Shown here one piece after another: positions 30,345 to 64,000 of a stretch of 64,000 nucleotides of DNA. Position 1 is the stretch's first letter, and each line of letters starts with the position of its first letter. Origin of the DNA: Spirochaetales bacterium. GTDB lineage: Bacteria; Spirochaetota; Spirochaetia; DSM-27196; Alkalispirochaetaceae. The stretch spans positions 1-64,000 of the forward strand of contig JANQHT010000068.1 in assembly GCA_028282545.1 (NCBI GenBank), given 5' to 3'. The notes under the pieces are model-generated. The model searched no databases. It saw only the letters and a list, made by a program, of their open reading frames with translations, and was not told the DNA's origin. A program made the translations under genes and the position numbers.

Positions 30345-31925
30345 CTACGGTCTAAATACGACGCCGTACGATCCGTACGACTCGTCGGTGACTACCTGCC
30401 ATGTCTGACCGTCCGCCGATCCACGAACGATACCACCCCGGTTGGTGACGCCCATGAACCCGTTGCCGATTGCCGTGATGTCGACCGGCCACCCGGGCAG
30501 ACCCGATACATCGTGGGCGGACCAGATGTCGCCGGCGTCCAGTGAAACGAGCATCGTTGCGTCGGTACCGTTGAGCTGCGACATGGCGACAAAAACGCCG
30601 TCCCTCTCCGCTCCGGCGAGTACCGCGTACGCCGCCGTGGTTACACCGGTTGAATTGATTACCCAGTCCGTATCGCCGTCCGCCGGCTCCAGGTCCGTTC
30701 CGTCGAGTATGCCGCCGGGGCTTCCCGGTTGGCCCGTCAGGGCGATCCATTCGGTATCGTCGTCGGTCGCGAAGAGTTCGACGATCATCTGGTTTGGGCG
30801 ATTGGCGTCGTCGGCGACCGAGGTTGTCCAGGTTACGCCGTTGTCGGTGGAGAAGACGCCGGTATCCGGTGGGGCGCCCGCGGCTACCCACGTATCCTTG
30901 GCGGCATCGTACATCACCGCATGGATTTCCACGCCGCCGGTCCACGCCTCGGTCCAGGAGACGCCATCGGGGCTCCTCAGAATGACGCCGTTTCCCGCGG
31001 CGATCCAGACGCCGTTGGAGAACTCCACGACAAAGAGGTCCCGCGTTGTAACGGAAGCAGAGCCCACCATCGTCCACTCTGACCCGTTGTTCGACCAGTA
31101 GACGTAGCCACCGGTGCCGACGGCAACGATGCGGCCCTGGTTGTTGACCACCCCCGCCCGGAGGCGACCGACACCGTTAAGTTGGATCGGGTTGGTGGAC
31201 CAGGTGGACCCGTTTTCCGAGTAGACGATTTGCGGCCGGTCAACGCCATTGGCGTCAATCCGATAGGACATGAGGAAGTAGTGCGAATCAGCGGCGCTGA
31301 CCGTGTCTCCCCCGGTACCGCCGTCGCCGCCGACATCGATGCGCGTCATATCGTACGGAGTTCCATCCACCGTAAGGGTGCCGGCGGTCACGGCGGAAAG
31401 GTCGAGCGATGTGGCAGAGTAGGTGTACACCGCAGCGCCGCCTTCCACCGACATCGACGAAAAAAGGGCATCGGTACCGCTAACCGTCATCGTTGCATCG
31501 ATCTCGACGGTGAGTGTACTCGCCGCCGCGTTATCGGTGAACGCGATATCGGCCGAGCCGTTGTACGTCTCGTCGTAGGGGACTCCGTCAGCCTCCGGCA
31601 CGACATCGGTGATCGTCACATCCAGCGCGACCGTCGAACCGGACGACGCGGTGGTCGTGACGGAGATACCCGGAGGATAGTCGCCTGTGTCGTAGTCGGG
31701 AAAGGTCTGACCCGCGGGCGGGTCACCGCCTCCGTCAAGGATGGCTTCGATCAAGCCTCCCACGACTTCCATCGCGGCGACCGCTTCCGGATCGGTGATG
31801 AGCGATCCACCGGTGTCTTCCTCCTCTTCCAGGCCGAGCAGTTCCTGAATGTTGCATCCGGACAGCGCGATTATCGCGATACCGATCACAACCGCGATAC
31901 GCAGAGCAGGTGAGATTCGAGACAT
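30345..31925 (-). CDS. Lipoprotein with Asp-box repeats (sialidase-like beta-propeller)
   Basis: 526 aa from ATG 31925, with GGAGGT before it. The signal AVVIGIAIIALSGC has a perfect lipobox. An acidic N-terminal part (to about 200) is low-complexity and strand-rich. The C-terminal ~310 residues contain at least five Asp-box motifs of the S-x-D/N-x-G-x-x-W type: YSENGSTW, WSNNGSEW, RSPDGVSW, STDNGVTW and GSADGQTW. They form a propeller as in sialidases and Ycf48-like proteins. Catalytic sialidase residues were not identified, so it is better seen as a surface binding protein. It is divergent from the AraC-type gene, and the start of this gene is part of the segment copied at 62923-63329. Confidence 0.85.
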   Translation of the reverse strand: MSRISPALRIAVVIGIAIIALSGCNIQELLGLEEEEDTGGSLITDPEAVAAMEVVGGLIEAILDGGGDPPAGQTFPDYDTGDYPPGISVTTTASSGSTVALDVTITDVVPEADGVPYDETYNGSADIAFTDNAAASTLTVEIDATMTVSGTDALFSSMSVEGGAAVYTYSATSLDLSAVTAGTLTVDGTPYDMTRIDVGGDGGTGGDTVSAADSHYFLMSYRIDANGVDRPQIVYSENGSTWSTNPIQLNGVGRLRAGVVNNQGRIVAVGTGGYVYWSNNGSEWTMVGSASVTTRDLFVVEFSNGVWIAAGNGVILRSPDGVSWTEAWTGGVEIHAVMYDAAKDTWVAAGAPPDTGVFSTDNGVTWTTSVADDANRPNQMIVELFATDDDTEWIALTGQPGSPGGILDGTDLEPADGDTDWVINSTGVTTAAYAVLAGAERDGVFVAMSQLNGTDATMLVSLDAGDIWSAHDVSGLPGWPVDITAIGNGFMGVTNRGGIVRGSADGQTWQVVTDESYGSYGVVFRP

Positions 31926-31983
31926 AACGGGTACCTCCGTATACCTACCATGCACTCAAACTCCGCCGCCTGCGCCCCAAAAC

Positions 31984-33147
31984 ATGATTTGGGACGCTAT
32001 ACTGGCGAGAATGACGATCTTGCAGTTCGTGGCAACACTCGGGGCGGTCCAGGGTGCGCTGCTCCTGGCGCTCGTGGCGCTTCGGTTCCGCCGCGCCCAG
32101 AACTACCCGCTTGCGCTGCTCCTGCTCGTCTATTCGCTTCGTATGGGAACGATCCCCGCCTGGAACCCTCAGACGATGGTGGCGTTCCGGTGGATGCTTC
32201 CTTTGACGACTCCGCTGCCGTTTCTCTTCGGTCCGCTGCTTTGGTGGTTCGCCCACGAACTGAGCAATGACACCGGCATTCGGACGACGCCGCGGATCCT
32301 CTTGCACTTTGTTCCGTACGCTCTGGACGTTCTCTTCACGACGGCAATCGCCGTTACCATGAGTAACGCCGCGTACGCTGCCATGTTTGCGTCGATTTTC
32401 GCGGGAGAACCACCGCTGCATCTCATAATCCGTAACGCCGGCAAGGTGGTTGTGAACGTGACCTACGTCACTCTGGCCGTACGGCTTGCGTTCCGCCGCC
32501 GACCGGCGGCGGAAGCAACGCCGCATCAGCGGATGTGGCTCCGCTGGTTGGTGGTAACACCGATCGTTTCACTCGCCCTGTTCGCGTTTGTGGCCCTGGT
32601 CCCGGCAGCATCCGCGCGGCTGGCGCGCGGTGAGGCCACCCCGTTCGTTCTGCTCTCGGCGGCTATGGCCCTGCTGATCTACGTCTTTTCGTTTCTCATG
32701 GTGTTGGCACCGGAAGTTCCGTCGGGAACATCGCGTCTTCCCGGCGGCGTGGCGCGATATCGGCGCGGGGCAAGCGATATCGACAAAGGCGAGTACGCCG
32801 ATATCGCCGGCAAAGTGGAGACGATGTTAACCGCCGGGGCGTATCGTGATCCGGATCTTTCCCTGGATTCGATGGCAAAGATGGTCGGTATTCATCCGTC
32901 CAAACTATCGCACGCGATCAACCATGAGTTTGGTCGGTCCTTCCCCGCTCTTATCGGGCGACGGCGCGTTGACGCGTTTCTGGAGGCGGCACAAAAGGGA
33001 GAACTCCGGGACAGGAGCATTCTCGACCTCGCCTTCGATGTCGGGTTCTCGTCCAAGAGTACCTTCAACCGCGTTTTCAAGGCGGCGACGGGCGAATCAC
33101 CCACGCAGTTCCGCGAACGTGCAAGGAGCGCGCACGATGTACGCTAA
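31984..33147 (+). CDS. AraC-family regulator with N-terminal membrane domain
   Basis: 387 aa from ATG 31984; ATG 32011 is the alternative. Both methionines are conserved in the decayed copy at 63.1 kb. The first ~240 residues hold about seven membrane helices (from LQFVATLGAVQGALLLALVA to MALLIYVFSFLMVLAP). The C-terminal ~100 residues are an AraC DNA-binding domain (LSLDSMAKMVGIHPSKLSHA and ILDLAFDVGFSSKSTFNRVF). Such membrane-bound regulators bind DNA while sensing a membrane or external signal. The stop overlaps the start of the alcohol dehydrogenase gene by 11 nt, which makes that gene the most likely target. Confidence 0.9.
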   Translation: MIWDAILARMTILQFVATLGAVQGALLLALVALRFRRAQNYPLALLLLVYSLRMGTIPAWNPQTMVAFRWMLPLTTPLPFLFGPLLWWFAHELSNDTGIRTTPRILLHFVPYALDVLFTTAIAVTMSNAAYAAMFASIFAGEPPLHLIIRNAGKVVVNVTYVTLAVRLAFRRRPAAEATPHQRMWLRWLVVTPIVSLALFAFVALVPAASARLARGEATPFVLLSAAMALLIYVFSFLMVLAPEVPSGTSRLPGGVARYRRGASDIDKGEYADIAGKVETMLTAGAYRDPDLSLDSMAKMVGIHPSKLSHAINHEFGRSFPALIGRRRVDAFLEAAQKGELRDRSILDLAFDVGFSSKSTFNRVFKAATGESPTQFRERARSAHDVR

Positions 33148-34222
33148 AAGGACGATGAAAGCGATCGTGACAACCGGCGTAGGCGACTATGACAAACTGG
33201 AGTACCGGGACGTTCCCGTTCCCGTCCCGGGCGCGAACGAGGTTCTTCTGAAGGTTCTGGCGGCCGGCGTGAACAACACTGATATCAATACGCGCGTCGG
33301 GTGGTACTCCGCGAACGTGACCGGCGCAACCAATGATACCGCGGTCAACAACGCCGAGGAGTCCGCCCATGGCGTACGCGCCGACGGCGGTTGGAACGAC
33401 GCGACTCCCTTTCCCTTTATCCAGGGAACCGACTGTTGCGGTTTGGTTGAGGCGGCTGGATCGCGCGTAGAGAGCGCCCCGATCGGGCGCCGCGTCCTCG
33501 TGCGGGCGTGTATGCGAACCCACGGTTTTGCATCGCTGGAAAACGCCTGGATGGGCTCCGATTTCGACGGCGCCTTTGCACAGTACGTGACCGTCCCAGC
33601 CACCGAGGTCTTCCCGGTCGAGTGTGGATGGAGCGATGAGGAGCTGGCCACCGTTCCCTGCGCCTACGGCACGGCCGAAAACATGCTGCACCGGGCGGGG
33701 GTCGCACCGGGCGAAACCGTCCTGGTGGCGGGCGCTTCCGGCGGCGTCGGTTCCGCCGCGGTCCAGTTGGCACATCGCCGTGGAGCTACCGTGATTGCCG
33801 TGACGGGGACGGCAAAAGCGGGGTGCCTCCGGGTGATAGGTGCAAACATCGTCATCGTGCGCGGTTCCGACCTGATCGTCGCGCTCGGTGAGAACAGCGT
33901 TGACGTGGTGGTGGACAACGTTGGTGGAGACGCCTTTCCGAAGATGTTGCAACTCCTGCGGCGCGGCGGGCGGTACGTCTCGTCCGGCGCCGTTGCCGGT
34001 CCCATCGTTGCCCTGGACCTTCGTACCATGTACTTGAAGGACCAGACGCTCATCGGTTGCACCGCTTGGGACGAACCGGTCTTTCCGAATCTGATCGGCT
34101 ATATCGAACGCGGAGAGATCAAACCGCTCCTGGAGAAGACGTTCCCCCTGGAGCGGATCGCGGACGCGCAACGAGAGCTTATCAAGCGCGAACACGTGGG
34201 GAAGTTCGTGCTCGCGCCGTAG
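33137..34222 (+). CDS. Medium-chain alcohol dehydrogenase / quinone-oxidoreductase-type enzyme
   Basis: 361 aa from ATG 33137, with AAGGAG 8 nt upstream; ATG 33155 is possible. The GroES-like N-terminus (IVTTGVGDYDKLEYRDVPVP, VLLKVLAAGVNNTDINTR) is followed by a family insert ending GWNDATPFPFIQGTDCCG. The Rossmann part has GETVLVAGASGGVGSAAVQL and VDVVVDNVGGDAFPKML. The usual catalytic zinc ligands of alcohol dehydrogenases are not evident, so an NADPH-dependent reductase is equally possible. It overlaps the AraC-type gene. Its middle (33293-33416) is duplicated in decayed form at 63211-63329. Confidence 0.9.
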   Translation: MYAKRTMKAIVTTGVGDYDKLEYRDVPVPVPGANEVLLKVLAAGVNNTDINTRVGWYSANVTGATNDTAVNNAEESAHGVRADGGWNDATPFPFIQGTDCCGLVEAAGSRVESAPIGRRVLVRACMRTHGFASLENAWMGSDFDGAFAQYVTVPATEVFPVECGWSDEELATVPCAYGTAENMLHRAGVAPGETVLVAGASGGVGSAAVQLAHRRGATVIAVTGTAKAGCLRVIGANIVIVRGSDLIVALGENSVDVVVDNVGGDAFPKMLQLLRRGGRYVSSGAVAGPIVALDLRTMYLKDQTLIGCTAWDEPVFPNLIGYIERGEIKPLLEKTFPLERIADAQRELIKREHVGKFVLAP

Positions 34223-34602
34223 GTGGTGCCCTTCGCATTTCGGAGCGGGACTACGGTTGGATGTTACGTCGTGAAAGACGACGCCTGCGGTTCCGTTACT
34301 CCGGGGCGCTGCCGGTGGATTTTGTATCGCTGCGTGAAGACCAATCGAGGTTACGAGATCCGCGTCAGGTGCGATTCCTTGGTTTTCCTGTATCCCGTAC
34401 ACCAGCAAAGCGACCGATCGCGGTGCCATCGAATCACGCTCGCCACTGTCCGCTGATCGTACGCTCCGTTTCACGAGTGAAGAGCCAAGTTGGACATAAT
34501 ATATCGAGATTATTAATATAAAATTACCATTTATCCGTCACCACGAGTGAGCGAGCGTTGTGGACCAATACGTGGCGTTTGTGGATAGGGTAGGAGTGGA
34601 AG
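34223..34602 (+). other. Intergenic region behind the alcohol dehydrogenase
   Basis: 380 bp without an intact gene. It holds the 54-bp GH65-like fragment at 34310-34363 and, near the right end, an AT-rich stretch (around 34495-34530) that probably carries the promoter for the gene at 34603. AGGAG lies at good distance before that ATG. Confidence 0.6.
34310..34363 (+). pseudogene. Fragment resembling the GH65-like gene
   Basis: In the frame opening at 34223, 18 codons read C-R-W-I-L-Y followed by RCVKTNRGYEIR. The GH65-like protein encoded at 60770-62767 has C-C-W-I-M-S followed by RCVKTERGYEIR at 62006-62059. Differences sit largely at third codon positions. Nothing outside the 54 bp was aligned by eye, so this is either a short fossil of a lost gene or a chance likeness; the former seems more probable. 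Confidence 0.45.
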
Positions 34603-39639: not shown

Positions 39640-39645
39640 TTTCGT

Positions 39646-40232: not shown

Positions 40233-40444
40233 AGACCGTAGACCGCACCACATCTCAATCGGATCACGGGTGAGATCCTCGGAAACTCACGTTCTCGATA
40301 TTCGAAAAGCCGTCTAAATATGCCCGCTTGATTCAGCGCCTATGGACTCCCTGAGCAAGATGCACACGGACAATGGCGGCGGCCCCCTCGGGAGCGCCCA
40401 GGGAAACGACGCGACCGGCGGCGTACAGTCTTAGGTCGTAACAG

Positions 40445-40490
40445 AAAAAGCTGAATCGGTGTCCGCGGGAGTACAACGCGGACGGACCGT
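40445..40490 (-). terminator. Possible terminator of the cyclase/ABC operon
   Basis: On the minus strand, GTCCGCG (40477-40483) pairs with CGCGGAC (40461-40467), with flanking ACCG/CGGT able to extend the stem. Five T residues occur at 40449-40445. The T-run is about 11 nt from the stem, so termination would be imperfect. Confidence 0.4.
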
Positions 40491-40501
40491 TTCCTTGTTG
40501 G

Positions 40502-42264: not shown

Positions 42265-42310
42265 GTAGTTCCCACCACCATCGGACTTCGGTGTCGATCG
42301 CGTAGACCGT

Positions 42311-42341
42311 GCTCCAATCCCCATGCGGCGGGGATTGGAGC
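42311..42341 (-). terminator. Hairpin between binding-protein and permease genes
   Basis: GCTCCAATCCCC (42311-42322) and GGGGATTGGAGC (42330-42341) are perfect complements with a 7-nt loop. Without a U-run it probably stabilises the binding-protein mRNA and lowers permease expression, as known for maltose- and histidine-type operons. Confidence 0.6.
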
Positions 42342-42368
42342 AATAATCATCGGCCGATATTCTACCAA

Positions 42369-43664: not shown

Positions 43665-43726
43665 TTTCCCCGCCTCCTTCTCAACGGTTTCTCATGACGC
43701 GTCCATAACGCGTGTATTTCACACCA

Positions 43727-45253: not shown

Positions 45254-45400
45254 GAAAGCTCCTTGAGGCACTGAAATTGCATTGCCTTCACCCAACGCTG
45301 CGCCGGGTCGTGCAACAATTGAGATCATGATCAGTCGTGAATGGGGAAACCGCAAGTACGGGAGGTACTCAGAAGGTACCGAGTTATGTGAAGAGCTCTG

Positions 45401-46066: not shown

Positions 46067-47271
46067 GTTTTTACCGGAACCACCACTGGAGCATCTGAAA
46101 CCAATGGGATTTTTGCGGTTGCCACGAACCCCGTATCGGAGAAATATGCAACTTCTCCACCCAGGGCGGATACGCGCTCCCGCATCCCGTGAAATCCGAT
46201 TCCCTCCTCAATTACTACCGCGCCGATGCCGTTGTCCCTAACGGAAACGTACATCCAGTCTCCGTCCTCCAGAAGGGTAACCGTCACATCAGTTGCTTGA
46301 CCGTGTCGAAACGCGTTGGTCAGACACTCCTGAACGAAATGGTAGATCGTAGCCGAAACAGAGGAATGCTCAACGCGGGCTCTCCGTGCGTGCAAACGAA
46401 GGGTGACTTTGACACCGGTTGAACGTTCATATACCTGTAGCAGCTCCTGTAGCGCTTCGACACCGTGCGGGATGCCGTGGTTCGGCTGTCGCAGCAATCG
46501 GAGAACCCGTCGTGTTTCAAAGTGCCCGGTCTGCGCTTGGTGTTTGATCGTTTGGACCAACTCCCTTGACTTCGTTGGATTCGAATCCAACGAAGATACC
46601 GCGGCCTCGCAAAGCATGGTGATGTTTGTGAGCGTGTAAGCGATATCGTCGTGGATCTCTCGGGTAATGCGATGACGCTCCTCTATCAATCCCTGCCGGC
46701 GGGCAAGCCGGGCGAAATCGCTGTATCCGACGTTGGCGTCGGAAAGGCTTTGCACAGTGGCTTCCAGATGGCCTAGACGCAATGCCGTTTCTTCGCTACG
46801 GTTGAGCAAACGCATCCATTTTCTCAAGAGATGCACGATTACCACACTCCATGCCGCAAGGGCAGCTACCGTGACTATACTCGTCGTACCGATAGCATCC
46901 CGAAATGGCGTGGATACGTTCATCAATACGGTGATCCAAGCGATATGGGCGGCCAAGGCGGCTGTGGCCATCGCCGGGCTTCCAAGCTCGCTTGTGATTA
47001 ATGCAATCAGAAACACCAACGTTAACCGCATCCCTATCGCGTCGGCGAACGGAATACTGGCAACCGAAATGAGGAACACTGCGATCAGGATGCATACCAG
47101 ACGGAGGGCCCGGAATGCCACTCCGAATACGGTCAACACGGCAACGATCGCCATCAATACCAGGAACTGTTGCATCCAATCCGATAAAAACCCTTGTCCG
47201 CGGATCGCAAAGAAACTCTGTACAGCGAGTGTGCCGACAACGACCACCGCCGCGGCGGATGAAGTTTTCAT
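46063..47271 (-). CDS. NarL-family sensor histidine kinase (HisKA_3)
   Basis: 402 aa. Five or six hydrophobic helices cover residues 1-150, with little periplasmic sequence between them, so it probably senses within or at the membrane. The HisKA_3 dimerisation domain holds the phospho-accepting His207 in EERHRITREIHDD. A HATPase_c domain follows (FVQECLTNAFRHGQATDV, VRDNGIG, EGIGFHGMRERVSALGG). It overlaps the response regulator by 4 nt. It heads the operon with the cyclase and ABC genes, so the transported compound may be its signal. Confidence 0.94.
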   Translation of the reverse strand: MKTSSAAAVVVVGTLAVQSFFAIRGQGFLSDWMQQFLVLMAIVAVLTVFGVAFRALRLVCILIAVFLISVASIPFADAIGMRLTLVFLIALITSELGSPAMATAALAAHIAWITVLMNVSTPFRDAIGTTSIVTVAALAAWSVVIVHLLRKWMRLLNRSEETALRLGHLEATVQSLSDANVGYSDFARLARRQGLIEERHRITREIHDDIAYTLTNITMLCEAAVSSLDSNPTKSRELVQTIKHQAQTGHFETRRVLRLLRQPNHGIPHGVEALQELLQVYERSTGVKVTLRLHARRARVEHSSVSATIYHFVQECLTNAFRHGQATDVTVTLLEDGDWMYVSVRDNGIGAVVIEEGIGFHGMRERVSALGGEVAYFSDTGFVATAKIPLVSDAPVVVPVKT

Positions 47272-47363
47272 GTGCCCAATTGATAGTATTTCGCCAAAAT
47301 CCAGTTACGCAATAGCTCCTTTCCCGTCGAGTTGAACCGGGAGTTCCTTGATGACCTCTTGGG

Positions 47364-47381
47364 TGTACGTCGGTACGTACA
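47364..47381. promoter_or_regulatory. Candidate regulator-binding inverted repeat
   Basis: TGTACGT (47364-47370) and ACGTACA (47375-47381) pair perfectly across 4 bp, about 95 bp upstream of the kinase start and 155 bp upstream of the divergent gene at 47537. The size suits a dimeric LuxR-type regulator, but this is an inference. Confidence 0.35.
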
Positions 47382-47536
47382 GGGACGCTACCCGTCTCTT
47401 CGCCGGGGCTCAACGATTTTTGTCACTGATAGAACGCTGTTTCTAACACCGTTTTAATAGATATTCTTGTGAATCATGATAAAATAGTTTAATATTATCT
47501 TGACCGTAATTTTCCGTGTGTGGGAGTGAGATAGTC

Positions 47537-47977
47537 GTGACACGATTTCGTTTTCCGATAACTGTACTATTCCTTTTTACGATCATTGCCATTCGTGCTG
47601 AGGCGCAGTTCGCGACGTTTCTTTTTCGTTGGAACAGCGTCGAAATGGTTCAGGACTACGCTGCGATTCCCGAGTGGGTTACAACGGTCTCCCTTCAGTA
47701 TGGTCAGGGATACAGTGAATCGCGAGAACTTGGGGAGCGAGAAAACGTTCGGGTGAGTGTTGATTTGTTGGCACCGGCGCGAATCGATATCCAGGTTTTC
47801 GGAGGTTACGAGTGTCTGTGTTTCGGACGGGCGGAATATGAATTGAAACTGCACGAGTTTGTTGCCGGGAAGCCGGAACGAATCCAAGTCCCCCTTCGAG
47901 TTATTGATGAGAGTGGAGTCGAGGGAACCGCAACAGTTGCGCAATGGGTATTCGAGATCTTTGTGACAAGGGAATAA
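47537..47977 (+). CDS. Exported small protein of unknown function
   Basis: 146 aa from GTG 47537, with GGGAG upstream. A signal peptide (FPITVLFLFTIIAIRAEA) is followed by a strand-rich domain of about 120 residues (EWVTTVSLQYGQGYSESREL, RENVRVSVDLLAPARIDIQV, ATVAQWVFEIFVTRE) with one Cys-x-Cys pair (CLC). It looks like a small beta-sandwich protein for the periplasm. No family recognised. It is divergent from the two-component operon across an AT-rich region. Confidence 0.65.
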   Translation: MTRFRFPITVLFLFTIIAIRAEAQFATFLFRWNSVEMVQDYAAIPEWVTTVSLQYGQGYSESRELGERENVRVSVDLLAPARIDIQVFGGYECLCFGRAEYELKLHEFVAGKPERIQVPLRVIDESGVEGTATVAQWVFEIFVTRE

Positions 47978-48020
47978 GGGGCCTCTGACACTCAATCTCC
48001 ATTGATTGGTAGAATCCGGT

Positions 48021-48797
48021 ATGCCGTCCAAGCGTGCGTACTATCGCACCTCCGAAGTCGCACGCTCGGTAGGTGTGCACCCCAACACAATTCGCTGGTA
48101 CGAAAGTGCCGGGCTATTGGGCCCGATTGACCGCGACACCAATGGATACCGCCGGTTCTCCGCTGCGAATCTCGTAGAAGCGAAGCTTGTCTACCGCGCA
48201 ACGCGCGTAACATGGATGTCGGGAGTTGTCCGCTCGACGGCATTGGAGATCCTTGCACTCGTACGCGAGGGAGCGCTGGTTGAAGCGGCAACGCGGATCG
48301 ATCAACTGGTCGATCATCTGAACCGTGAGATCGCTCTCGCCCGCGAGGCGTTGGCCGTGATTGCGGAGTGGCTCTCAGGGTTCGGTGAGCTGCGTTCCGC
48401 TACAACTACACTGATTCCCATCCGGAAAGCCGCGCACATTACCGCGACCACGGCCGATCAAATTCGCAACTGGGAGCGAAACGGCCTGTTGATTCTCCCC
48501 CGCGATCGCCACAACGGCTACCGTGTATTCGGTGACCTGGACCTGTCGCGGCTCAAGGTCATCCGACTGTGCCGGTTGGCAGGGTACAGCATCACCGCGA
48601 TCCGGCGTCTGATGGCAGCGGTTGATCAGACCCCAGGCGGTACCGCTCTGGATCTGGAGCGCGTGGCAAACTGTCCCACTGAGGAAGAGAAATGGTACGA
48701 AACGTTCCCGACCGATGTGTGGATTTCAACATTGACACGGCATCGCGACACGATTGACGAGATGATTCCATTAATTGCGAAGTTGAAAACCCTCTAA
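48021..48797 (+). CDS. Regulator with two tandem MerR-type DNA-binding domains
   Basis: 258 aa from ATG 48021. Two MerR winged-helix domains occur in one chain. The first is residues ~5-70 (YRTSEVARSVGVHPNTIRWY, then ESAGLLGPIDRDTNGYRRF). The second is ~130-205 (IRKAAHITATTADQIRNWE, then RNGLLILPRDRHNGYRVFG). A helical segment joins them. MerR proteins normally dimerise to bring two domains together; here one chain carries both. The ABC-2 exporter genes begin 48 bp downstream on the same strand and are the likely targets. Confidence 0.88.
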   Translation: MPSKRAYYRTSEVARSVGVHPNTIRWYESAGLLGPIDRDTNGYRRFSAANLVEAKLVYRATRVTWMSGVVRSTALEILALVREGALVEAATRIDQLVDHLNREIALAREALAVIAEWLSGFGELRSATTTLIPIRKAAHITATTADQIRNWERNGLLILPRDRHNGYRVFGDLDLSRLKVIRLCRLAGYSITAIRRLMAAVDQTPGGTALDLERVANCPTEEEKWYETFPTDVWISTLTRHRDTIDEMIPLIAKLKTL

Positions 48798-48845
48798 AAG
48801 CCCACCAAGGTTTTATCCTTTTAGCATATCCAACAGGAGGGAACC

Positions 48846-49613
48846 ATGGGGCACGTAGTGGAGGTGAGGGCGCTTCATAAGCATTATGGACGCGGCACGC
48901 ACGCTTTGCGAGGTGTGGATCTGACAATTGAAGAGGGCGAACGCTTCGCGTTGCTTGGGCCGAACGGTGCCGGCAAGTCCACACTCGTACGCATCGTCGC
49001 CGGTCTTTCGACACGTGATAGTGGCGAGACGGTGGTTTCCGGGGTTGATCCCGGTCGGCAGCCTCGGACACTGCAGTGGAAGGTGGGAGTCGTTCCTCAG
49101 GAGAACGATCTCGATCCCTTGGAAACACCGGAGTCGATGGTGACGTTCCAATGCCGGCTCTTCGGTATGAACCACCGTGACGCCCGTGAACGTTGCGATG
49201 AGCTTCTGACGACATTCAACCTCGAACCATTTCGCGGAAAAAAAGCGTCGGAACTATCGGGAGGAAACAAACGCCGATTGCACTGCGCGCTGGCGCTCGT
49301 TCATCGCCCTCGCCTGCTGTTCCTCGACGAACCCACAACGGGTATGGACCCGGAAGTACGCCGGAGCTTCTGGCAGGTATTGCTCAGGGCCAACGAGCGC
49401 GACGGAACGACACTGTTTCTTACCACGCAGTACCTTGAAGAGGCGGAACAACACACCGATTCGATCGCTCTGATCCATGATGGAACGATCCTCTTCCGTG
49501 GATCGGTACGCGACTTCAAGGGGCGCGTCGACAAAACCGGTGGTGTTTCTTTGGAAGAGAGTTATCTCTTATGGCTCAAGGAGCACAGGAGGAAGGAGGT
49601 GGCCTGTGTCTAA
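48846..49613 (+). CDS. ABC-2 type transporter ATP-binding protein
   Basis: 255 aa. ATG follows AGGAGGG. Walker A is GPNGAGKST, the signature is LSGGNKRRLHCALAL, Walker B is LLFLDEPTTGMD and the D-loop and switch region follow (LFLTTQYLEEAEQ). The sequence is closest to drug/antibiotic-type exporters of the DrrA/CcmA group. It overlaps the permease gene by 8 nt, so the two are translated together. The double MerR gene upstream probably controls them. Confidence 0.93.
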   Translation: MGHVVEVRALHKHYGRGTHALRGVDLTIEEGERFALLGPNGAGKSTLVRIVAGLSTRDSGETVVSGVDPGRQPRTLQWKVGVVPQENDLDPLETPESMVTFQCRLFGMNHRDARERCDELLTTFNLEPFRGKKASELSGGNKRRLHCALALVHRPRLLFLDEPTTGMDPEVRRSFWQVLLRANERDGTTLFLTTQYLEEAEQHTDSIALIHDGTILFRGSVRDFKGRVDKTGGVSLEESYLLWLKEHRRKEVACV

Positions 49614-50367
49614 TTCGGGACTTTTGCTCGTCTATCGCGGGGCGCGGAAGTTGTTGCGTTCTCCCGGTACCGTCGTGATGGGTCTTGCGTCGAGTCTGTT
49701 TTTCTTGATCGTGTACAACGCCGGGATCGGCGGAATTGGTGACCTCGGCGCGTTCGGCGGTGCCGGGTATTTCGCGTTTCTGTTCCCATTGGGAACCGTT
49801 TCGCTGGCAATGGGTTCGGCGGCAGGCGCCGGACAAAGCCTACATGCCGACCTCAACTCGGGGTATTTTCGTCGCCTCTTTCTCAGTCCGGTTCCCCGCT
49901 GGGCATTCGCAGCAGCGCCGATCATTGCCGACGCATTGGCCACCGCGATTACCAGCACTGCGCTTATAGGCGTTGCGCTGATATTCGGATTGCCCCTGCG
50001 GTTTGGTCCATCGTCCTTTGTATCTGTCGTTGCGATATCGATATTGTGGGGGCTGGCGCTTTCCGGGATCTCCGGTGGCATCATGCTGCGAACGGGTAAA
50101 CCGGGCGGTGCTCGTATGGTCACCACCGCTGTTTTCCCATTGATCTTTCTCAGTACGACATTTCTGCCGCGTGAACTGATCGATAGCGAGTGGCTTCTAT
50201 TAGTGAGCCGTATCAACCCGGTAACCTATATACTTGAGGCGCAACGCTTTGTTCTTGGTGGAACCGGGAGCTTTGCCGATTTTGCAACGGGATTCGTGCT
50301 TTCCGGTTGTCTGGCTTTGGCCGGCACGGTGTACGCGCTGACGGGAACGAACAAAATTTTGGTGTGA
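49606..50367 (+). CDS. ABC-2 type transporter permease
   Basis: 253 aa from GTG 49606, with GGAAGGAGGT upstream. Six hydrophobic helices with the ABC-2 layout: VVMGLASSLFFLIVYNAGIG, AFLFPLGTVSLAMGS, SGYFRRLFLSPVPRWA (the coupling helix region), ALIGVALIFGLPL, ISILWGLALSGISGGIML, and a last helix before the C-terminus. INPVTYILEAQRF is a typical late motif. It forms the membrane part of the exporter with the ATPase. The cargo is unknown, perhaps a drug or lipid-like compound. Confidence 0.92.
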   Translation: MSNSGLLLVYRGARKLLRSPGTVVMGLASSLFFLIVYNAGIGGIGDLGAFGGAGYFAFLFPLGTVSLAMGSAAGAGQSLHADLNSGYFRRLFLSPVPRWAFAAAPIIADALATAITSTALIGVALIFGLPLRFGPSSFVSVVAISILWGLALSGISGGIMLRTGKPGGARMVTTAVFPLIFLSTTFLPRELIDSEWLLLVSRINPVTYILEAQRFVLGGTGSFADFATGFVLSGCLALAGTVYALTGTNKILV

Positions 50368-50540
50368 TCTACAGCGGAATTCCAAGGCATCGTCCACCAC
50401 TGCGAAGCCCCATTCCTGAATGCGACATCGATCTCCGACTACGTATCCATTTGTCTCACACTGCGCTCATTCGAATGTACGTGCGACTTCCGACAAGCTC
50501 CGCACCCATTTCGGTCACAACGCGTTCGGCAACGATATTA

Positions 50541-50664
50541 TGCAGGTCTTTTGGTCACGACCGGGTGCAACGTTCCTCTCTTTGCTGCGGGCAGGCCGGA
50601 ACCGAAGCCTTTCGATCGCCGGAGCGACGCTTTCCAGTGGATCAATATCTATGACAAGATTGTG
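50541..50664 (+). pseudogene. Remnant of a second hydrolase gene
   Basis: Translation gives LVTTGCNVPLFAAG, then F.RRSDAFQWINIYDK. The intact hydrolase at 36853-37602 has LVTTGCNIPLFVAG, then FERPNDTFSWLNIFDR in the same order and spacing. Upstream, another frame reads HFGHNAFGNDIM, which would suit the nucleophile region, so a frameshift is likely near 50540. No start or ribosome site is present. The fragment ends at the stop of the radical SAM gene. Confidence 0.65.
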
Positions 50665-50668
50665 CGGG

Positions 50669-52894
50669 CTAACCGTTCGCGTTTAGTTCGGTCAGGTAGC
50701 GGCGGTACTTCTTCGGCAGGAAGTGTTGTTGGAGGGCGAGATTGGTTCGATCCTCGATAGCGATGTGGCGGACGTAATCGCGCCATAGATTCTGCATCGC
50801 CTCATCGCCGCGGGTATCCGATTCGGCGGTCGTGTCGAACGGTGCTCCCTCGTCCGCCGAGCCAAAATGGAGATGGGTGCCGTCGTAGAAGGCAAGCTCG
50901 TGTCGTTTTCTGTCGATGATGTACCATCGCCCGGTGTGCATGCGCTCCACAAAGGAGGGCGCGATCACCGGCAGCAGGCGGCAATCGGGTTCCATTTCGG
51001 CGACCCACAGATCGTCCCCCCGTTTGACAAAACGGAGAATCCCCAGAAAGCGTTCCGCCTCATGAAGGAGGCGTCGCCGGCCCTCCTCGGCTCGGAGAAC
51101 CGCCTCGTCGAACGCAGGCGCGTCCAGTTGACCTCGGTCGATGGAGCCTCGCGCGAGAACCACGAGACTCCTCTCAATCCCGGGCAACTCCGATAGGAAG
51201 GCGTGATAGATCAACGTGTACCGGGAGCGGTTGCGTCCCAGGCGTCGGGCGACGCGAACCGCACCGGCACTGTCCGTTTCGATCAGGCGATCTTCGATGA
51301 AGAGGTCGTTCTGGTGGTCGGAGTGCCGATTCGTGGCAACGATCTCTTCAGGAATACGATCGACTCGTTCCACGACCGCATCGAAGAGGGTGAGGAGACC
51401 GGCAAAGGTACCGTCGTAGAGCAGGCGGTATCGTTTTGTAGGCGGCACGGTACCGATTTCGTTTTTCTTCACTCCCGCGAGAGAGGGGAGGGACGCGTGT
51501 GTTGCCGGACGGGCCGGCCGCGCACGTTGGTTGGCCGTCCGGGCCACAGGTCGCTTCCCGGTGGGCCGGTTCGGCGAGCGGCGCTCTCGTTGGTCCGGCG
51601 GGACCGCGGTATCGCTCGGTTCGTTTGGAAAGATAGAGAGTTGTCCCCACGCCGCAACGCTGCGCCCTCCTGTACCATCCGCCGTAGGTGGTGCTTCGTT
51701 CGTCGTCTTCCCGGCAAAGAGTGCCCGGAGGTGGTCCGGCGGTAGATCACACGCTTCGATACGGAGACCGTTGCAGGTGATGAAGTAGCGTGCCCGATTG
51801 AGCGCGATACCGAATCGTTTGAGCAGATCAAAGGTGAGACGTGTCCGCCGTCGTGTGTGAACGATCCGCCTGGCGCCCTGTAGCCCTATCCCCGGCACCC
51901 GCAGGAGGAGCCGATAGTCGGCGCGCTGCACGTCTATGGGAAAGAGGTCGTAGTTGCGCAGCGCCCAGGCAAGTTTTGGATCCACCTCGCTATCCATCTC
52001 CTCCTGGCCCTCGGTGAAAAGTTCCGCCACGTCGTAGTGGTAGAGCCGGATGAGCCAGTCCACCTGGTAGAGACGGTGCTCCCGTTGTAGCGGCGGGGAG
52101 TCCGCCGATGGTAGGCGACGGTCGGAACCGACCGGCATGTAGGCCGAGTAATAGACGCGGCGCATCGCGAGGCGGTTGTAGAGGTGTGACGCCAGGGTAA
52201 CGATCGTTCGGTCGCTCTCGGGGCTTGCACCGACGATGAGCTGGGTCGACTGGCCCGCGGGCGCAAAGGTCGGAGTGTGGCTCAGGCGTCTGTGATCCTC
52301 CTGCGTCTCCCGTAGCTTGTCCGCGAGGCGGCCCATCGTTCCAACGATGGCGCGCTTGGTCTTCTGTGGCGCCAAAGCGGTGAGGCTCTGTTCCGAGGGC
52401 AGCTCGATGTTGACGCTTATCCGATCGGCGTAGAGGCCCGCCTCGTTGACACATCGCTCCGAGGCGCCGGGTATCGCCTTGAGGTGGATGTAGCCGCCGA
52501 AGCCCTCATCCCGACGAAGCCGCCTGGCTACCGCTATGAGCCTGTCCATTGTGTAGTCTGGATCACCGAGGATGCCCGAACTGAGGAAGAGACCCTCGAT
52601 GTAGTTGCGCTTGTAGAAGTTGATGGTGAGATCGACGAGTTCCTGTACGGTGAACGTGCAGCGCCTGACGTCGTTGCTGCGTCGACTGACGCAGTAGGCG
52701 CAGTCGTAGATGCAATGGTTGGAGAAGAGGACCTTTAACAGGGAGACGCAGCGACCATCAGCGGCCCAGCTATGGCAAACACCCGCGGGCCGCGCTGCGC
52801 CGATGGTGCCGGCGCGAGCGCTCCCGCTGGATGCGCAGGACGCATCGTACTTGGCCGAGTCCGCGAGGATGGCAAGCTTGTCCGCCAGATCCAT
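50669..52894 (-). CDS. Radical SAM protein fused to a DUF4130 domain (DNA modification/repair-linked)
   Basis: 741 aa from ATG 52894. The N-terminal half is a radical SAM enzyme of the putative DNA modification/repair family. It has the iron-sulfur motif in NHCIYDCAYCVSRR and helix-hairpin-helix elements (LLLRVPGIGLQGARRIVHTR). After a low-complexity Arg/Pro-rich linker (about 415-480) the C-terminal ~260 residues match DUF4130 (YDGTFAGLLTLFDAVVE near its start and the ending LALQQHFLPKKYRRYL). In most bacteria these are two neighbouring genes; here they are one. The start codon directly follows a 30-bp palindrome and no ribosome site exists, consistent with a leaderless mRNA. Confidence 0.88.
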   Translation of the reverse strand: MDLADKLAILADSAKYDASCASSGSARAGTIGAARPAGVCHSWAADGRCVSLLKVLFSNHCIYDCAYCVSRRSNDVRRCTFTVQELVDLTINFYKRNYIEGLFLSSGILGDPDYTMDRLIAVARRLRRDEGFGGYIHLKAIPGASERCVNEAGLYADRISVNIELPSEQSLTALAPQKTKRAIVGTMGRLADKLRETQEDHRRLSHTPTFAPAGQSTQLIVGASPESDRTIVTLASHLYNRLAMRRVYYSAYMPVGSDRRLPSADSPPLQREHRLYQVDWLIRLYHYDVAELFTEGQEEMDSEVDPKLAWALRNYDLFPIDVQRADYRLLLRVPGIGLQGARRIVHTRRRTRLTFDLLKRFGIALNRARYFITCNGLRIEACDLPPDHLRALFAGKTTNEAPPTADGTGGRSVAAWGQLSIFPNEPSDTAVPPDQRERRSPNRPTGKRPVARTANQRARPARPATHASLPSLAGVKKNEIGTVPPTKRYRLLYDGTFAGLLTLFDAVVERVDRIPEEIVATNRHSDHQNDLFIEDRLIETDSAGAVRVARRLGRNRSRYTLIYHAFLSELPGIERSLVVLARGSIDRGQLDAPAFDEAVLRAEEGRRRLLHEAERFLGILRFVKRGDDLWVAEMEPDCRLLPVIAPSFVERMHTGRWYIIDRKRHELAFYDGTHLHFGSADEGAPFDTTAESDTRGDEAMQNLWRDYVRHIAIEDRTNLALQQHFLPKKYRRYLTELNANG

Positions 52895-58413: not shown

Positions 58414-60759
58414 ATGGTTTCCTACGACGACTACACCACGGACGGTTTTGAAATCTCGGAGATCCACTTCGACGCGACGAATCTGGGCAAATGGGAGAGC
58501 ATTCTCTGCCAGGGCAACGGCTACATGGGCGTCAGGGCGGCACACGAGGAGCGCTATCCCGGCGAGCGGCGCAATCTCTTCGTTGCGGGCACCTATAACC
58601 GCTTTGACGAGCACGAGCAGACCGAACTCCCCAATGGAGCGGACCTGATCGGGCTGGATCTCGGCTTGAACGGCGAGCCCTTTAACCTCATTGCCGGCAC
58701 GATTCACGACTACCGCCGGACCCTCAACCTGAACAACGGGGAGTTGGGGCGATGGATAACGTGGAGCACGGAGGCGACGGGCCGGATGCACCTCGAGTTT
58801 ATGCGCTTCGTGTCGCTCCGCGACCTTCACCTCTTCTGTAGGCGCGTCGTCGTTACCCCTCTGGAGCGCGACGTGGAGGTCGTTCTCACGACCGGGATAG
58901 ACGGCCGTATGACCAACAGCGGCGTCTCTCACTTCTCGTATCGGAGCATGCGCGCCCCCGACGAAGGGACGCTCCAGCTCATGCAGACCACGACCCAGAG
59001 CCGGGTAGCCTTCGCGTTTGCCCTTTGCGATCGGCTGCAACGAGGCCGTGAGGACGCGACGGTTCGCGGCCACGCCGAAGGGGGGCGTCGCCTCATACGG
59101 CGAGTATATCGCCTCCGTCTGGCCAAGGGGGAGAGTCTGGAGCTGGAGCAGGCCGCGACGGTACACACAGACCGCGACAGAGACGTCGACCTTTCTACGG
59201 GTGAGTCGCTCGCCGCCGTGAATCTCGCCTACCTTCGCGATCGGGCCGATCGAACGTACGAAGAGCACCTGTCGGCAAGCACTGAGGCGTGGAACGCCCA
59301 TGTGTGGTCCGGCGCCCCCGTGCATATCGAGTCGGAGCGCGCCGTAGACCTCCGCGCGCTACGCTTCGCCCGCTACCACCTGACGGCGATTACACCGGCT
59401 CACGACAGACGTATGAATATCGGCGCCAAGGGGCTTTCGGGCGAGGGGTACAAGGGCCACGTCTTCTGGGACACGGAGATATTTATGCTTCCCTACTTCA
59501 CCCTCACCACGCCCGAGGTTGCCAGGAGCCTCCTTGAGTACCGCGGCCACTGCCTTCCGACGGCTCGGAGGAAGGCCAATGAGAACGGATACAGGGGCGC
59601 CATGTTCCCGTGGGAGTCGGCGTGGATTGACGACGGTGAGACCACCCCCGAGTACGGCGACGTGGATGTCCACACGGGCGAACAGATCCGTATCTGGTGC
59701 GGCGCCATCGAGCATCACATCACCGCCGACGTCGCATTGGGCGTGTGGCACTACTTCATGGCGAGCGATGATCAGGAGTTTATGGATGCCGTAGGCTACG
59801 AGATTATCTTCGAAGCGGCCGCCTTTTGGGCATCGCGACTGGAGTGGGACGAGGCGCAGGGCGTCTACGGTATTACCGACGTCATAGGTCCCGACGAGTA
59901 CAAGGAGCACGTGGACAACAACGCCTACACCAATTACGGTGCGTGGTGGTGCCTCGCCAACGCTCTGAACTGTGCAGAGTCGCTCCGCGCGAAACGTCGT
60001 ACACTCTACGACCGTTTCGACCGTGAACTGGGTCTCGCCCACGCGGTGGACGTGTGGCGCGACCGCGTTTCCACGGTCTATCTACCAAAGCCAAACGGGG
60101 AGGGGATCGTTCCTCAGGACGATACCTATCTGAGCCTTGACCAGATCGACCTTTCGCCGTACAGGAGCGCCCAGAGCCCCGGCGCGATCTTCAAAGAGCT
60201 TACCCTCGCGCAGGTCGGCAAGCTCCAGGTCTCAAAGCAGGCCGATGTGGTGCTGCTTATGGTCATCTTCGACGAACTCTTTGACGCACGAGTTCGAAAG
60301 GTGTGTCTGGACTACTACGAGTCCCGCACCCTCCACGACTCTTCCCTCTCCCTATCGGTCCACTCTCTGCTCGCCGCGGACCTGGGTGAAACCGAGCGCG
60401 CATACGAGTTTTTCAGGCGCGCCTGTATGATCGATATGGGTCCCAATATGAAGAGTTCGGACGCCGGCATTCACGCCGCCTCCCTGGGAGGGATATGGCA
60501 GTGCGTGGTCTTTGGTTTCGGAGGCTTCCGACCGCGGATCGACGGCGTGCTCAGGATCCGGCCGCGCCTTCCAAAAGCGTGGAGCGAACTCTCCTATTCA
60601 GTGCGTTGGAAGCGGCGGAGGCTCGATGTATGCGTGGACCACCGGCGTGTGCATATCCGCGTAGACGGCGACGAGCCGGCCCACCTCGACGTTGCAGGCG
60701 CGTCGTATACGGTTCATCGCGAACTGGATCTCGCCTACGAACCCGCCGCGGTCGTGTGA
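58414..60759 (+). CDS. Glycoside hydrolase family 65 phosphorylase (kojibiose/maltose/trehalose type)
   Basis: 781 aa, the normal length of GH65 phosphorylases. The N-terminal beta-sandwich has LGKWESILCQGNGYMGVRA. The (alpha/alpha)6 catalytic barrel has GLSGEGYKGHVFWDTEIFML and the catalytic acid Glu495 in VIGPDEYKEHVDNNAYTN. The phosphate-binding region is ...VSKQADVVLLMVIF. The enzyme would split a disaccharide with phosphate into beta-glucose 1-phosphate and glucose or another sugar. The exact substrate cannot be read from sequence. No beta-phosphoglucomutase gene is in the window. Confidence 0.92.
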   Translation: MVSYDDYTTDGFEISEIHFDATNLGKWESILCQGNGYMGVRAAHEERYPGERRNLFVAGTYNRFDEHEQTELPNGADLIGLDLGLNGEPFNLIAGTIHDYRRTLNLNNGELGRWITWSTEATGRMHLEFMRFVSLRDLHLFCRRVVVTPLERDVEVVLTTGIDGRMTNSGVSHFSYRSMRAPDEGTLQLMQTTTQSRVAFAFALCDRLQRGREDATVRGHAEGGRRLIRRVYRLRLAKGESLELEQAATVHTDRDRDVDLSTGESLAAVNLAYLRDRADRTYEEHLSASTEAWNAHVWSGAPVHIESERAVDLRALRFARYHLTAITPAHDRRMNIGAKGLSGEGYKGHVFWDTEIFMLPYFTLTTPEVARSLLEYRGHCLPTARRKANENGYRGAMFPWESAWIDDGETTPEYGDVDVHTGEQIRIWCGAIEHHITADVALGVWHYFMASDDQEFMDAVGYEIIFEAAAFWASRLEWDEAQGVYGITDVIGPDEYKEHVDNNAYTNYGAWWCLANALNCAESLRAKRRTLYDRFDRELGLAHAVDVWRDRVSTVYLPKPNGEGIVPQDDTYLSLDQIDLSPYRSAQSPGAIFKELTLAQVGKLQVSKQADVVLLMVIFDELFDARVRKVCLDYYESRTLHDSSLSLSVHSLLAADLGETERAYEFFRRACMIDMGPNMKSSDAGIHAASLGGIWQCVVFGFGGFRPRIDGVLRIRPRLPKAWSELSYSVRWKRRRLDVCVDHRRVHIRVDGDEPAHLDVAGASYTVHRELDLAYEPAAVV

Positions 60760-60769
60760 GGAGCGGCAC

Positions 60770-62767
60770 GTGCGATCGCGTACAATGACGAACTGCGGTC
60801 CGGAGGTACCCCACGCCCATGTGAGCAACGGCGTCATCGGCCTCAATGTGCCGCGGTCGCCGTTCCTCTCCGGGGAGGCGCGCGTCGCCGGCTCGTACGA
60901 GTCGTGCGAGGAGTACGATTCGGAGGCACTGGCCCAGGTTCCCTACCCGTTGGCGCTTTGCTGCGCCGTCGACGGCAGGGGGCTGTCGGAGCGTGGAGCC
61001 GCCACTTGGTCCCAGACGTATGACTTCGCGTGCGGTGAGCTGAGAACCGAACTCGTCTACTCCGTCTCCACGGGCAAGCTCGTCGTCTCGGACGTGGTCT
61101 TCTGTTCTCGCTCCACGCCCTCGATCATGGCGCGGAGGCTTTATCTACGAGCTGACGCACCGTTGTCGGTGCGTCTCGACTTCTTTATCGATATCGAGGG
61201 GGTGCGGGGTGATTTCCGCGACGCCTACGGTGAACACGGAGATGTGGACTGGACGGTGCTGTGGGAGACCGTCGGAGGGCGCTCTTCCCTCGGCATCTCC
61301 TTTCGCCTCGATATCACCGCCTCGAGGGCGCCCGTCGTCAGGCGAGTCGAGGAAGCGCGCGTACGCGTGAAGAGCGAGATCGATAGGGGAGGGGAACTCG
61401 TCGTCTCGCAACTGGTTGCGATGGTACCCGATACTCTTCACCGCGAGCCCCATTGGCAGGCGTTGCGTCTCGTCCGCGCAGCGACGTGGCGCGGTTGGGA
61501 CGATATCCGGGAGAACAACCGTCACGCCTGGAACGTGTTGTGGCGTTCGCGCGTCCGGCTCATGGGTGCGGGGGAGCGGTGGCAGGACGTCGCCGACGCT
61601 GCCTTCTTTTACCTTCACGCCGCCGCCCACGACGCGTCGCCATACAGCATTCCTCCTTACGGACTCTCATCCACGGCCTACAACGGGCACATCTTCTGGG
61701 ATACGGAGACGTTTATGCTTCCGGTGCTCCTGTTTACGTCGCCCAAGGTGGCGTCGAACTTGCTTCGCTACCGCGCGGAGCGACTTCCCGCGGCACGAGC
61801 AAACGCGGCCCTTTCCGGGTATGGGGGTGCGATGTTCCCCTGGGAGAGAGGCTCCGACGGCTGCGAGCTCACCCCCGTCTTTGCGCCTACTTCCGAGGAG
61901 CACCACGTGAGCCTCGACGTCGCCGTTGCGTGCCTTCAGTACGCCTACGTTGCCGGAGACGCGTCCTTTGTGTGGAGCGTCTTGGTTCCATTGCTCCGCG
62001 ACGTCTGCTGCTGGATTATGAGCCGTTGCGTGAAGACGGAGCGCGGCTACGAGATCCGGCACGTCGTCGGTATCGACGAGGGGATCGTTGACATCGATAA
62101 CAATGCCTACACGAATATTGCCGCCAAGATCGTCCTGGAAGGTACGGCGCGCTTGATCGAGGGGAGCGACCTCGACGTGGACCCCGGTGCGCTGCGAGCG
62201 GTAGCGAGAGAGATGTTCATCCCGGTGGATGCCGAACTGGGCGTCATCGTAAAGCACGACCGCTACCGCTACGCGGGCGGCCCGTGCAATGCTGAAACCC
62301 TCGCCGCCTTCTACCCCCTTGGCTACCGCCACACCGATCCTGCGGTCGAGGCGGCCACGTTCGACTACCACCTTGGACTCGCCGATACGGTGCTTCACCT
62401 CCCCATGCTCTCGCCCCTCTTCGGCGTTTGGGCCGCTCGCCGGGGAGACCGGGGCCGCTCCCTCGACTTTTTCACCAGAGGTTTTATGGACTTCGTCTGT
62501 GATCCGTTCGACAGCTTTTCAGAGTGGCGCTCTGAAACGCGTCCCCTCTTCCTTACCAATCCGGCCGGCTTTCTGGGCTCGTGTATCTACGGCCTGAGCG
62601 GCCTCGTTCCGGACGCCGGCGATCCCCAGGCGTGGGGCCGCTTCCCCGTCGTCCTGCCCGAGGGCTGGGACGCGGTCGAGGTGGAACGTATCTGGATCAG
62701 GGGGCGACCGGCCTCCCTCCGAGCTTGTCACGGCGCGCAACGGGCGAGTGTTGAGTGGCTGGATTGA
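60770..62767 (+). CDS. GH65-like glycosidase/phosphorylase
   Basis: 665 aa from GTG 60770, with GAGGAG 6 nt upstream; it starts 10 bp after the GH65 gene. It shares GH65 landmarks: GLSSTAYNGHIFWDTETFML, SGYGGAMFPWE and a catalytic region with IDEGIVDIDNNAYTNIA. The canonical GPDEY has become GIDEG, keeping the Glu. It is shorter than the phosphorylases and resembles acid-trehalase/ATHL1-like GH65 proteins that hydrolyse. It probably acts on a related or larger glucoside imported by the same system. A 54-bp piece similar to part of it is found at 34310. Confidence 0.85.
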   Translation: MRSRTMTNCGPEVPHAHVSNGVIGLNVPRSPFLSGEARVAGSYESCEEYDSEALAQVPYPLALCCAVDGRGLSERGAATWSQTYDFACGELRTELVYSVSTGKLVVSDVVFCSRSTPSIMARRLYLRADAPLSVRLDFFIDIEGVRGDFRDAYGEHGDVDWTVLWETVGGRSSLGISFRLDITASRAPVVRRVEEARVRVKSEIDRGGELVVSQLVAMVPDTLHREPHWQALRLVRAATWRGWDDIRENNRHAWNVLWRSRVRLMGAGERWQDVADAAFFYLHAAAHDASPYSIPPYGLSSTAYNGHIFWDTETFMLPVLLFTSPKVASNLLRYRAERLPAARANAALSGYGGAMFPWERGSDGCELTPVFAPTSEEHHVSLDVAVACLQYAYVAGDASFVWSVLVPLLRDVCCWIMSRCVKTERGYEIRHVVGIDEGIVDIDNNAYTNIAAKIVLEGTARLIEGSDLDVDPGALRAVAREMFIPVDAELGVIVKHDRYRYAGGPCNAETLAAFYPLGYRHTDPAVEAATFDYHLGLADTVLHLPMLSPLFGVWAARRGDRGRSLDFFTRGFMDFVCDPFDSFSEWRSETRPLFLTNPAGFLGSCIYGLSGLVPDAGDPQAWGRFPVVLPEGWDAVEVERIWIRGRPASLRACHGAQRASVEWLD

Positions 62768-63335
62768 GGCGCCGCAGGGAGGCTTCGAACAGCGCTCTCC
62801 GTGAACTTCAATCGGGTCGCCGTGCGATCGTGTGGTATCCCGTTGGGGGAGGCGGGGTTTCGACTCACGCCCCTGCACGGGGGACGGCTTGAACAATTGC
62901 AGGAAAAAAGACGCATCGCAGGTTCAGGCCGAGCAGTTCCTGAATGGTGCATGCGGACAGTGTGATCACCACGCGACCTGTCACAACCGCGAACAGGACA
63001 CGCAGAGAAGGAGGTGTTCGAGATATAACGGCTATTTTTACATATATTATGTACCCGAACTCTGCTGCCTGCGCCCCAACACATGATCTGGGACGCTATA
63101 TTGGTGAAAATGTCGATGTTGCGGTTCGTGGCAGCCTTCGGGACCGTCCGGGGTACCCTGCTCCTGGCGATTGCGGCGCTTCGATTCCGCCGCACCCAGA
63201 ACTCCCCGCGTTGGATGATACTCCGCGAACGTGACCGGCGCCACCAATGAAACCGCAGTCAACAACGCCGTGGAGTCTGCTGATGGCGAACGCGCTGACG
63301 GCGGTTGGAATGAAGCGACCCCTTTCCCTGGACCT
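62768..63335. other. Region behind the GH65 operon
   Basis: No intact gene. The first ~155 bp show nothing I can name. From 62923 to 63329 lies the decayed AraC/dehydrogenase copy described separately. The last bases lead into the 3' end of the minus-strand exported-protein gene. Confidence 0.7.
62923..63329 (+). pseudogene. Decayed, internally deleted copy of the lipoprotein/AraC/dehydrogenase locus
   Basis: 62923-63205 follows 31828-32109 closely: the lipoprotein signal region, the spacer, and an AraC-type N-terminus reading MIWDAILVKM then LRFVAAFGTVRGTLLLAIAA. At about 63205-63212 the likeness jumps to 33293 and continues into the dehydrogenase (GATACTCCGCGAACGTGACC, matching 33303-33322 at nearly every base) up to about 63329/33416. 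A segment of about 1.18 kb is missing between. Stops interrupt every original frame. It lies directly behind the GH65-like gene. Confidence 0.85.
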
Positions 63336-63905
63336 TTATTTCGATCGTACTCGCCGGCCCGTCGGGTAGCCAATCAATGTGCCTATGATCAATCCGACGA
63401 ACGGCAGAATCCAGTCACGTCGGTTCCTTCGATCCTTTCCATCATTCTGAGGTTCCCACGCAACCGTTCGGGCTCCGTTGATTGAGTTGATTCGGAGAGC
63501 ACCATTCTTCTCGAAGGTCTCTGAGTACGTCTGTATTCGATAGTCGTGATTACCGTGATCCCAAAACTTGAACAGTGGTGCGTCGGCCTGTTCATAATAC
63601 ATCATCCCGAATGATCCGGTAGCCGTATACACTACCGCGTATTTCGGATCACCGTGTTGATCGAAATAGGTGGTTTTATGTCTCCCATTGCTCAGGATAA
63701 CTTCTTCACGCACTATTCGGCCATGTGAATTGAGTGTCCGGACTACGGTCGTCCCGTCATCGAGGATACGAGTCGTCGCCCGTTCTTCGGCTCCGCACAG
63801 GTGAATCGAGCACGACAAAAACACTGTAATGCAAACAAGGAAACGTAACAGGCCGTACCGAGCATTCCCAACAAGGTGGGAACCAGTTCTTGTTGTTGCA
63901 ATCAT
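63336..63905 (-). CDS. Exported protein with C-terminal membrane anchor
   Basis: 189 aa from ATG 63905; no strong ribosome site, and the frame is open further upstream. A signal peptide (RFLVCITVFLSCSIHLCGA) is followed by a strand-rich domain (TTRILDDGTTVVRTLNSHGR, HKTTYFDQHGDPKYAVVYTA) resembling MORN-like or antirestriction-type repeats loosely. A final helix (WILPFVGLIIGTLIGYPTG) and basic tail RRVRSK would fix it to the inner membrane. Not recognised as a known family. Its 3' end abuts the decayed copy at 62923-63329. Confidence 0.65.
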   Translation of the reverse strand: MIATTRTGSHLVGNARYGLLRFLVCITVFLSCSIHLCGAEERATTRILDDGTTVVRTLNSHGRIVREEVILSNGRHKTTYFDQHGDPKYAVVYTATGSFGMMYYEQADAPLFKFWDHGNHDYRIQTYSETFEKNGALRINSINGARTVAWEPQNDGKDRRNRRDWILPFVGLIIGTLIGYPTGRRVRSK

Positions 63906-64000
63906 GACTGAAGTGTAGCCGTTGGTTTCAGGAAATAAAACGAATAAAACTCCTGGACGCGTTGCTCCAGGCACCACGATACTATCTGAACCCAGATGAG

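Follow-up and report, generated by a model that had tools for sequence, protein, structure and literature searches.

A decayed second copy of a lipoprotein/AraC/dehydrogenase locus behind a GH65 operon in a Spirochaetales bacterium, with a scrap of a GH65 gene beside the intact locus

The window analysed here, bases 1-64000 of an 88.9-kb contig, belongs to a fragmented 4.28-Mb assembly (86% complete) of a Spirochaetales bacterium. Between 30 and 34 kb it holds an intact locus in which a lipoprotein gene on the minus strand is separated by a divergent promoter region from the gene of an AraC-type regulator, which in turn is followed by a dehydrogenase gene (Table 1); the top NCBIfam match of the dehydrogenase is the quinone oxidoreductase PIG3 family, below the cut-off. 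Behind a sugar-enzyme (GH65) operon, 31 kb from this locus, lies a stretch of about 405 bases that repeats parts of it, and a short piece of the second GH65 gene is found shortly after the intact dehydrogenase gene.

Table 1. Features of the intact locus, the second GH65 gene and the remnants of both in the window
Feature	Position	Strand	Description or basis
Lipoprotein gene	30345..31925	-	Intact; 526 aa, YCF48/PSII_BNR-like C-terminal stretch
Operator-like palindrome of the intact locus (putative function)	31975..31995	+	CCCCAAAACATGATTTGGGAC; pattern search
AraC-type regulator	32011..33147	+	Intact; 378 aa, hydrophobic N-terminal region and HTH_18
Medium-chain dehydrogenase	33137..34222	+	Intact; 361 aa, ADH_N and ADH_zinc_N
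Frameshifted 74-bp scrap of the second GH65 gene	34289..34362	+	78% ungapped identity to 61984-62058
Second GH65 gene, source of the scrap and left neighbour of the pseudogene	60692..62767	+	Top NCBIfam match kojibiose hydrolase, below cut-off
Pseudogene remnant of the lipoprotein/AraC/dehydrogenase locus, whole	62925..63329	+	Two collinear blastn matches
Lipoprotein 5' end remnant	62925..63026	-	ISRTPPSLRVLFAVVTGRVVITLSACTIQELLGL vs MSRISPALRIAVVIGIAIIALSGCNIQELLGL
Copied divergent intergenic/promoter region	63027..63109	.	77% identical; alignment to intact spacer
Operator-like palindrome of the copy (putative function)	63074..63094	+	CCCCAACACATGATCTGGGAC; sole other exact genome match 31975-31995
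AraC remnant, codons 1-33	63110..63209	+	Alignment to intact AraC
Deletion junction, CGC common to AraC 32108-32110 and dehydrogenase 33293-33295	63207..63209	+	blastn alignments, direct reading of sequence
Dehydrogenase remnant, codons 53-93	63207..63329	+	blastn and codon alignment

When 62701-63600 was compared with the window by blastn, 62925-63209 matched 31830-32110 (78.4% over 287 columns, E 1.8e-64) and 63207-63329 matched 33293-33416 (87.9% over 124 columns, E 5.8e-39), both in the order and orientation of the intact locus. The next-best match in the window covers 24 bp (E 0.001), and a search of the whole 4.28-Mb assembly with the remnant returns only the two intact-locus matches; chance similarity is ruled out as their source by the E-values and by the uniqueness of the hits. 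A previous sequence-only reading of this DNA had taken 62923-63329 for a decayed, collinear copy of the AraC/dehydrogenase locus and had proposed aligning 62900-63350 with 31800-33450 as a check: identity, order and orientation all hold, the similarity being far above random, and the right end was placed exactly, the left one 2 bases too early. Ungapped identity to the intact locus amounts to 81.2% in the lipoprotein start, 77.1% in the intergenic part, 83.0% in the AraC start and 88.6% in the dehydrogenase. Gene conversion of the dehydrogenase part (88% versus 83%) was considered and dismissed, the rate difference not being significant (P 0.25), and neither a tRNA nor an Rfam element was found at the junctions.

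All three genes are disabled in the copy. What is left of the lipoprotein gene corresponds to the first 32 codons of the intact one plus a 6-base, in-frame insertion, with similarity stopping after 34 codons; the start codon has changed from ATG to ATA and the lipobox-like LSAC is retained. The AraC frame continues across the junction and meets a stop after 46 codons, and in the dehydrogenase piece codon 56 has turned from TGG into TGA and one base has been deleted. A lost start, a stop, a frameshift and truncation thus occur together with significant similarity to intact genes (E 2e-64 and 6e-39), the combination by which pseudogenes are recognised, and the earlier statement that stops and shifts had ended coding is borne out. 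Missing from the copy are 1,182 bp of the intact locus (32111-33292), and also the whole lipoprotein gene after codon 32 and about 0.8 kb at the 3' end of the dehydrogenase gene. The sequence-only reading was therefore right about an internal deletion of 1.2 kb and understated the erosion, most of the lipoprotein and dehydrogenase genes being gone as well; the CG-rich join that it described (CCGCG/CGCGCG) shrinks to a 3-base overlap, CGC. Such a gap with such an overlap is the pattern that a short-homology deletion would leave, but it points only weakly to that mechanism, because three shared bases in DNA of about 60% G+C are too short to separate from chance. Seven bases from the end of the remnant stands the stop codon of an ORF of about 50% G+C (63336-63977, minus strand), whose secreted-looking product of 213 aa has no Pfam or NCBIfam match.

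The substitutions are distributed differently in the two coding pieces. In the dehydrogenase piece they fall on codon positions 1/2/3 as 1/2/11, so that 11 of 14 are third-position changes (P 7e-4 versus one third), whereas the AraC piece shows no third-position excess (7/4/6); the difference between the two patterns has a P of 0.03. Because of this excess, the dehydrogenase copy may have remained under selection for a while once the two copies had separated, which suggests that it was functional coding DNA before its decay, but changes on the intact copy alone could explain much of the pattern: the excess is also compatible with half of the changes having occurred on the intact, selected copy (P 0.08). 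With homologues from the order as outgroups, nine of the 14 differences were assigned to the copy and five to the intact gene, which are small numbers.

A self-comparison of the contig revealed that the intact locus, too, carries a remnant of the other locus. Beyond the intact dehydrogenase gene, 66 bases after its stop codon, a scrap of GH65 sequence with a one-base deletion encodes VPLLRG-CRWILYRCVKTNRGYEIR, corresponding to VPLLRDVCCWIMSRCVKTERGYEIR in the second GH65 gene. The match is unique genome-wide (E 2e-8) and reaches 56.3 bits, against at most 31.9 bits for other 380-bp intervals of the contig and at most 29.2 bits in 200 shuffles. Other GH65 genes were rejected as the source, because the scrap is most similar to the window's own second GH65 gene, and 24 GH65 loci from other genomes match it less well. 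The relatives of this gene in the order are only ~30% identical (best about 31%). It reads GIDEG where the first GH65 gene has GPDEY. Each of the two loci thus contains a remnant of genes that are intact at the other (62925-63329 and 34289-34362), as reciprocal loss would leave; the sequence-only reading, sound as far as this locus is concerned, had overlooked the GH65 scrap. That two loci hold scraps of each other is a new observation here and speaks for a duplication of neighbouring genes, after which the losses were complementary.

Homologues of the AraC regulator occur in 28 of the 46 genomes of the order. Among the AraC and dehydrogenase loci fetched from other genomes, most of them with only ~1.5 kb of flank, none has the two genes side by side; in one locus of an uncultured Spirochaeta MAG (L103), the lipoprotein and AraC genes adjoin, and only that pair is kept. 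The two dehydrogenase copies share a variable loop, which is missing in the nine homologues of other genomes whose sequence extends over this part. Remnant and intact locus are mutually closest relatives, the adjacency and the dehydrogenase loop being common to both and present in no other locus examined. A search of related genomes for an intact second copy behind a GH65 operon, as had been proposed, came back empty: neither such a copy nor a genome with both blocks complete was found among 46 genomes from the order, 297 from the class and a scan of genome contigs, but this absence says little, the set having no congener in it.

We regard 62925-63329, with a probability of roughly 0.85, as the remains, no longer functional, of a second copy of the divergent arrangement (lipoprotein gene to the left, AraC and dehydrogenase genes to the right), derived from duplicated neighbours with complementary loss. 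The homology of the remnant, its order, orientation and uniqueness, its disabling changes and the 1,182-bp gap are plain from the comparison. Neighbouring genes, namely the AraC/dehydrogenase locus beside a GH65 gene, would once have been present twice; by complementary loss, the AraC and dehydrogenase genes would then have survived at 32-34 kb, those for GH65 at 58-63 kb, and a scrap of the lost partner would have been left beside each. The middle of the copy would have been lost by deletion between very short repeats, and at its right end, now abutting a gene of 50% G+C, further sequence would have been lost or replaced. At both remnants the G+C content falls (from 64% to 54% past 34 kb and from 63% to 52% past 63 kb), which might mean that DNA acquired at a later time was added at these points. 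The duplication probably took place after the adjacency had formed, because AraC and dehydrogenase adjoin in no other fetched locus, and the copied order is probably older than the duplication, since only lipoprotein and AraC genes adjoin in L103. The present order, in which the AraC/dehydrogenase locus is followed by the GH65 scrap and the GH65 gene by the AraC/dehydrogenase scrap, cannot be reached by a simple tandem duplication and reciprocal loss alone; to arrive at it, one has to assume three units, a permuted copy or some further rearrangement.

Whether the locus was once duplicated or a copy was gained and then decayed had been left as a pair of alternatives by the sequence-only reading; both keep a place, and the shared loop and adjacency favour duplication after the adjacency had formed. 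Horizontal transfer of the second copy out of a sister species, either by itself or together with the GH65 operon, with later decay, appears unlikely, if still worth serious thought: the divergence of 12-22% and the third-position excess in the dehydrogenase resemble the divergence of functional orthologues, and the right-hand locus may be foreign, given that the second GH65 gene matches nothing in the order at better than about 31%, but no examined genome has a sequence nearer to the remnant than the intact copy, the adjacency common to both copies was seen in this genome only and the GH65 region, at 63% G+C, is native-like. We therefore lean, short of proof, towards duplication within the lineage. 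It is hardly credible that a small mobile or repeated element happened to carry the pieces; a dispersed repeat family does exist in this genome, yet the remnant has exactly one counterpart, whose gene parts it follows in order except for a gap. Membership of a repeat family was likewise rejected, there being only two copies.

The copied promoter region raises the question of function. A palindrome like TCCCAAAATGTGAAATGGGACG lies upstream of many AraC homologues, and this genome has exactly two matches to the pattern YCYCANNANRNNANNTGGGAC, one in the intact spacer and one in the copy. Over 46 genomes it was found 18 times, versus 7 for the reversed pattern, and of the 16 sites outside this genome, 7 have an AraC homologue no more than 1.5 kb away, an enrichment that is partly built in, as the pattern was constructed from these same upstream regions. 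The form TCCCAnAATGnnAAATGGGAC stands upstream of AraC-type regulators across the order (loci L106-L123), and some relatives have extra sites by other genes (four in G019). We propose the palindrome as a candidate operator for this AraC family, and the extra sites near other genes could constitute a regulon; a literature search on the palindrome found nothing. That the remnant was kept as a functional element, with promoter and palindrome driving a 46-codon membrane peptide or binding the AraC regulator, is nevertheless very improbable. The palindrome is retained, a -10-like TATATT comes near the intact TATACT and the AraC start reads MSMLRFVAAFGTVRGTLLLAIAALRFRRTQNSPRWMILRERDRRHQ ahead of the stop, but no part is less conserved than the spacer (77%), its palindrome differs from the intact one by two changes, the changes in the AraC part show no preference for third positions and no second genome retains the element. 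Slightly more doubtful again is that the retained promoter and palindrome still bind the regulator, either serving as a decoy or giving rise to a short new membrane peptide made from the AraC start. Most likely, the remnant does nothing now.

Taken by itself, 62925-63329 is an ordinary pseudogene remnant, to which the reciprocal remnants between two loci are added. Reciprocal gene loss after duplication is known mainly from eukaryotic genome duplications and likewise leaves each locus with one gene set and a remnant of the other; here, in contrast, the case is local and bacterial, one of its two sides is documented by no more than 74 bp, and the gene order calls for additional steps. As far as the available text of the reports on bacterial pseudogenes and remnants removed by deletion goes (PMC522871, PMC2916853), these are likewise truncated, frameshifted, stop-containing intergenic copies with internal deletions, whereas the present one extends over three genes together with a divergent promoter, and its parental locus holds a scrap of a gene of the other locus. 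The window thereby provides a clean case of multi-gene decay in an uncultured spirochaete lineage, with two loci bearing mutual scraps, and in its analysis a candidate operator for this AraC family came to light as well. Finding both copies in a congener would date the duplication and show the former linkage of AraC/dehydrogenase and GH65 genes.

Elsewhere in the window, positions 20509-20746 belong to a dispersed repeat of ~230 bp, which has at least 40 copies in the genome (77-95% identical; another at G000:C73:65328-65501). It is strongly self-complementary, with a long hairpin CCGGAAGGAAGAACAAAACGC...GCGTTTTGTTCTTCCTTCCGG and outer arms GCAGTTCGCAT...ATGCGAACTGC, has no Rfam match and may be a MITE-like or structured repeat. 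Between flanks of 60-64% G+C, about 16 kb of lower G+C (50-58%) extend from 34400 to 51000, possibly an acquired island; they contain mostly unassigned proteins at the left, a HicB-like gene, a two-component pair and ABC transporter genes.
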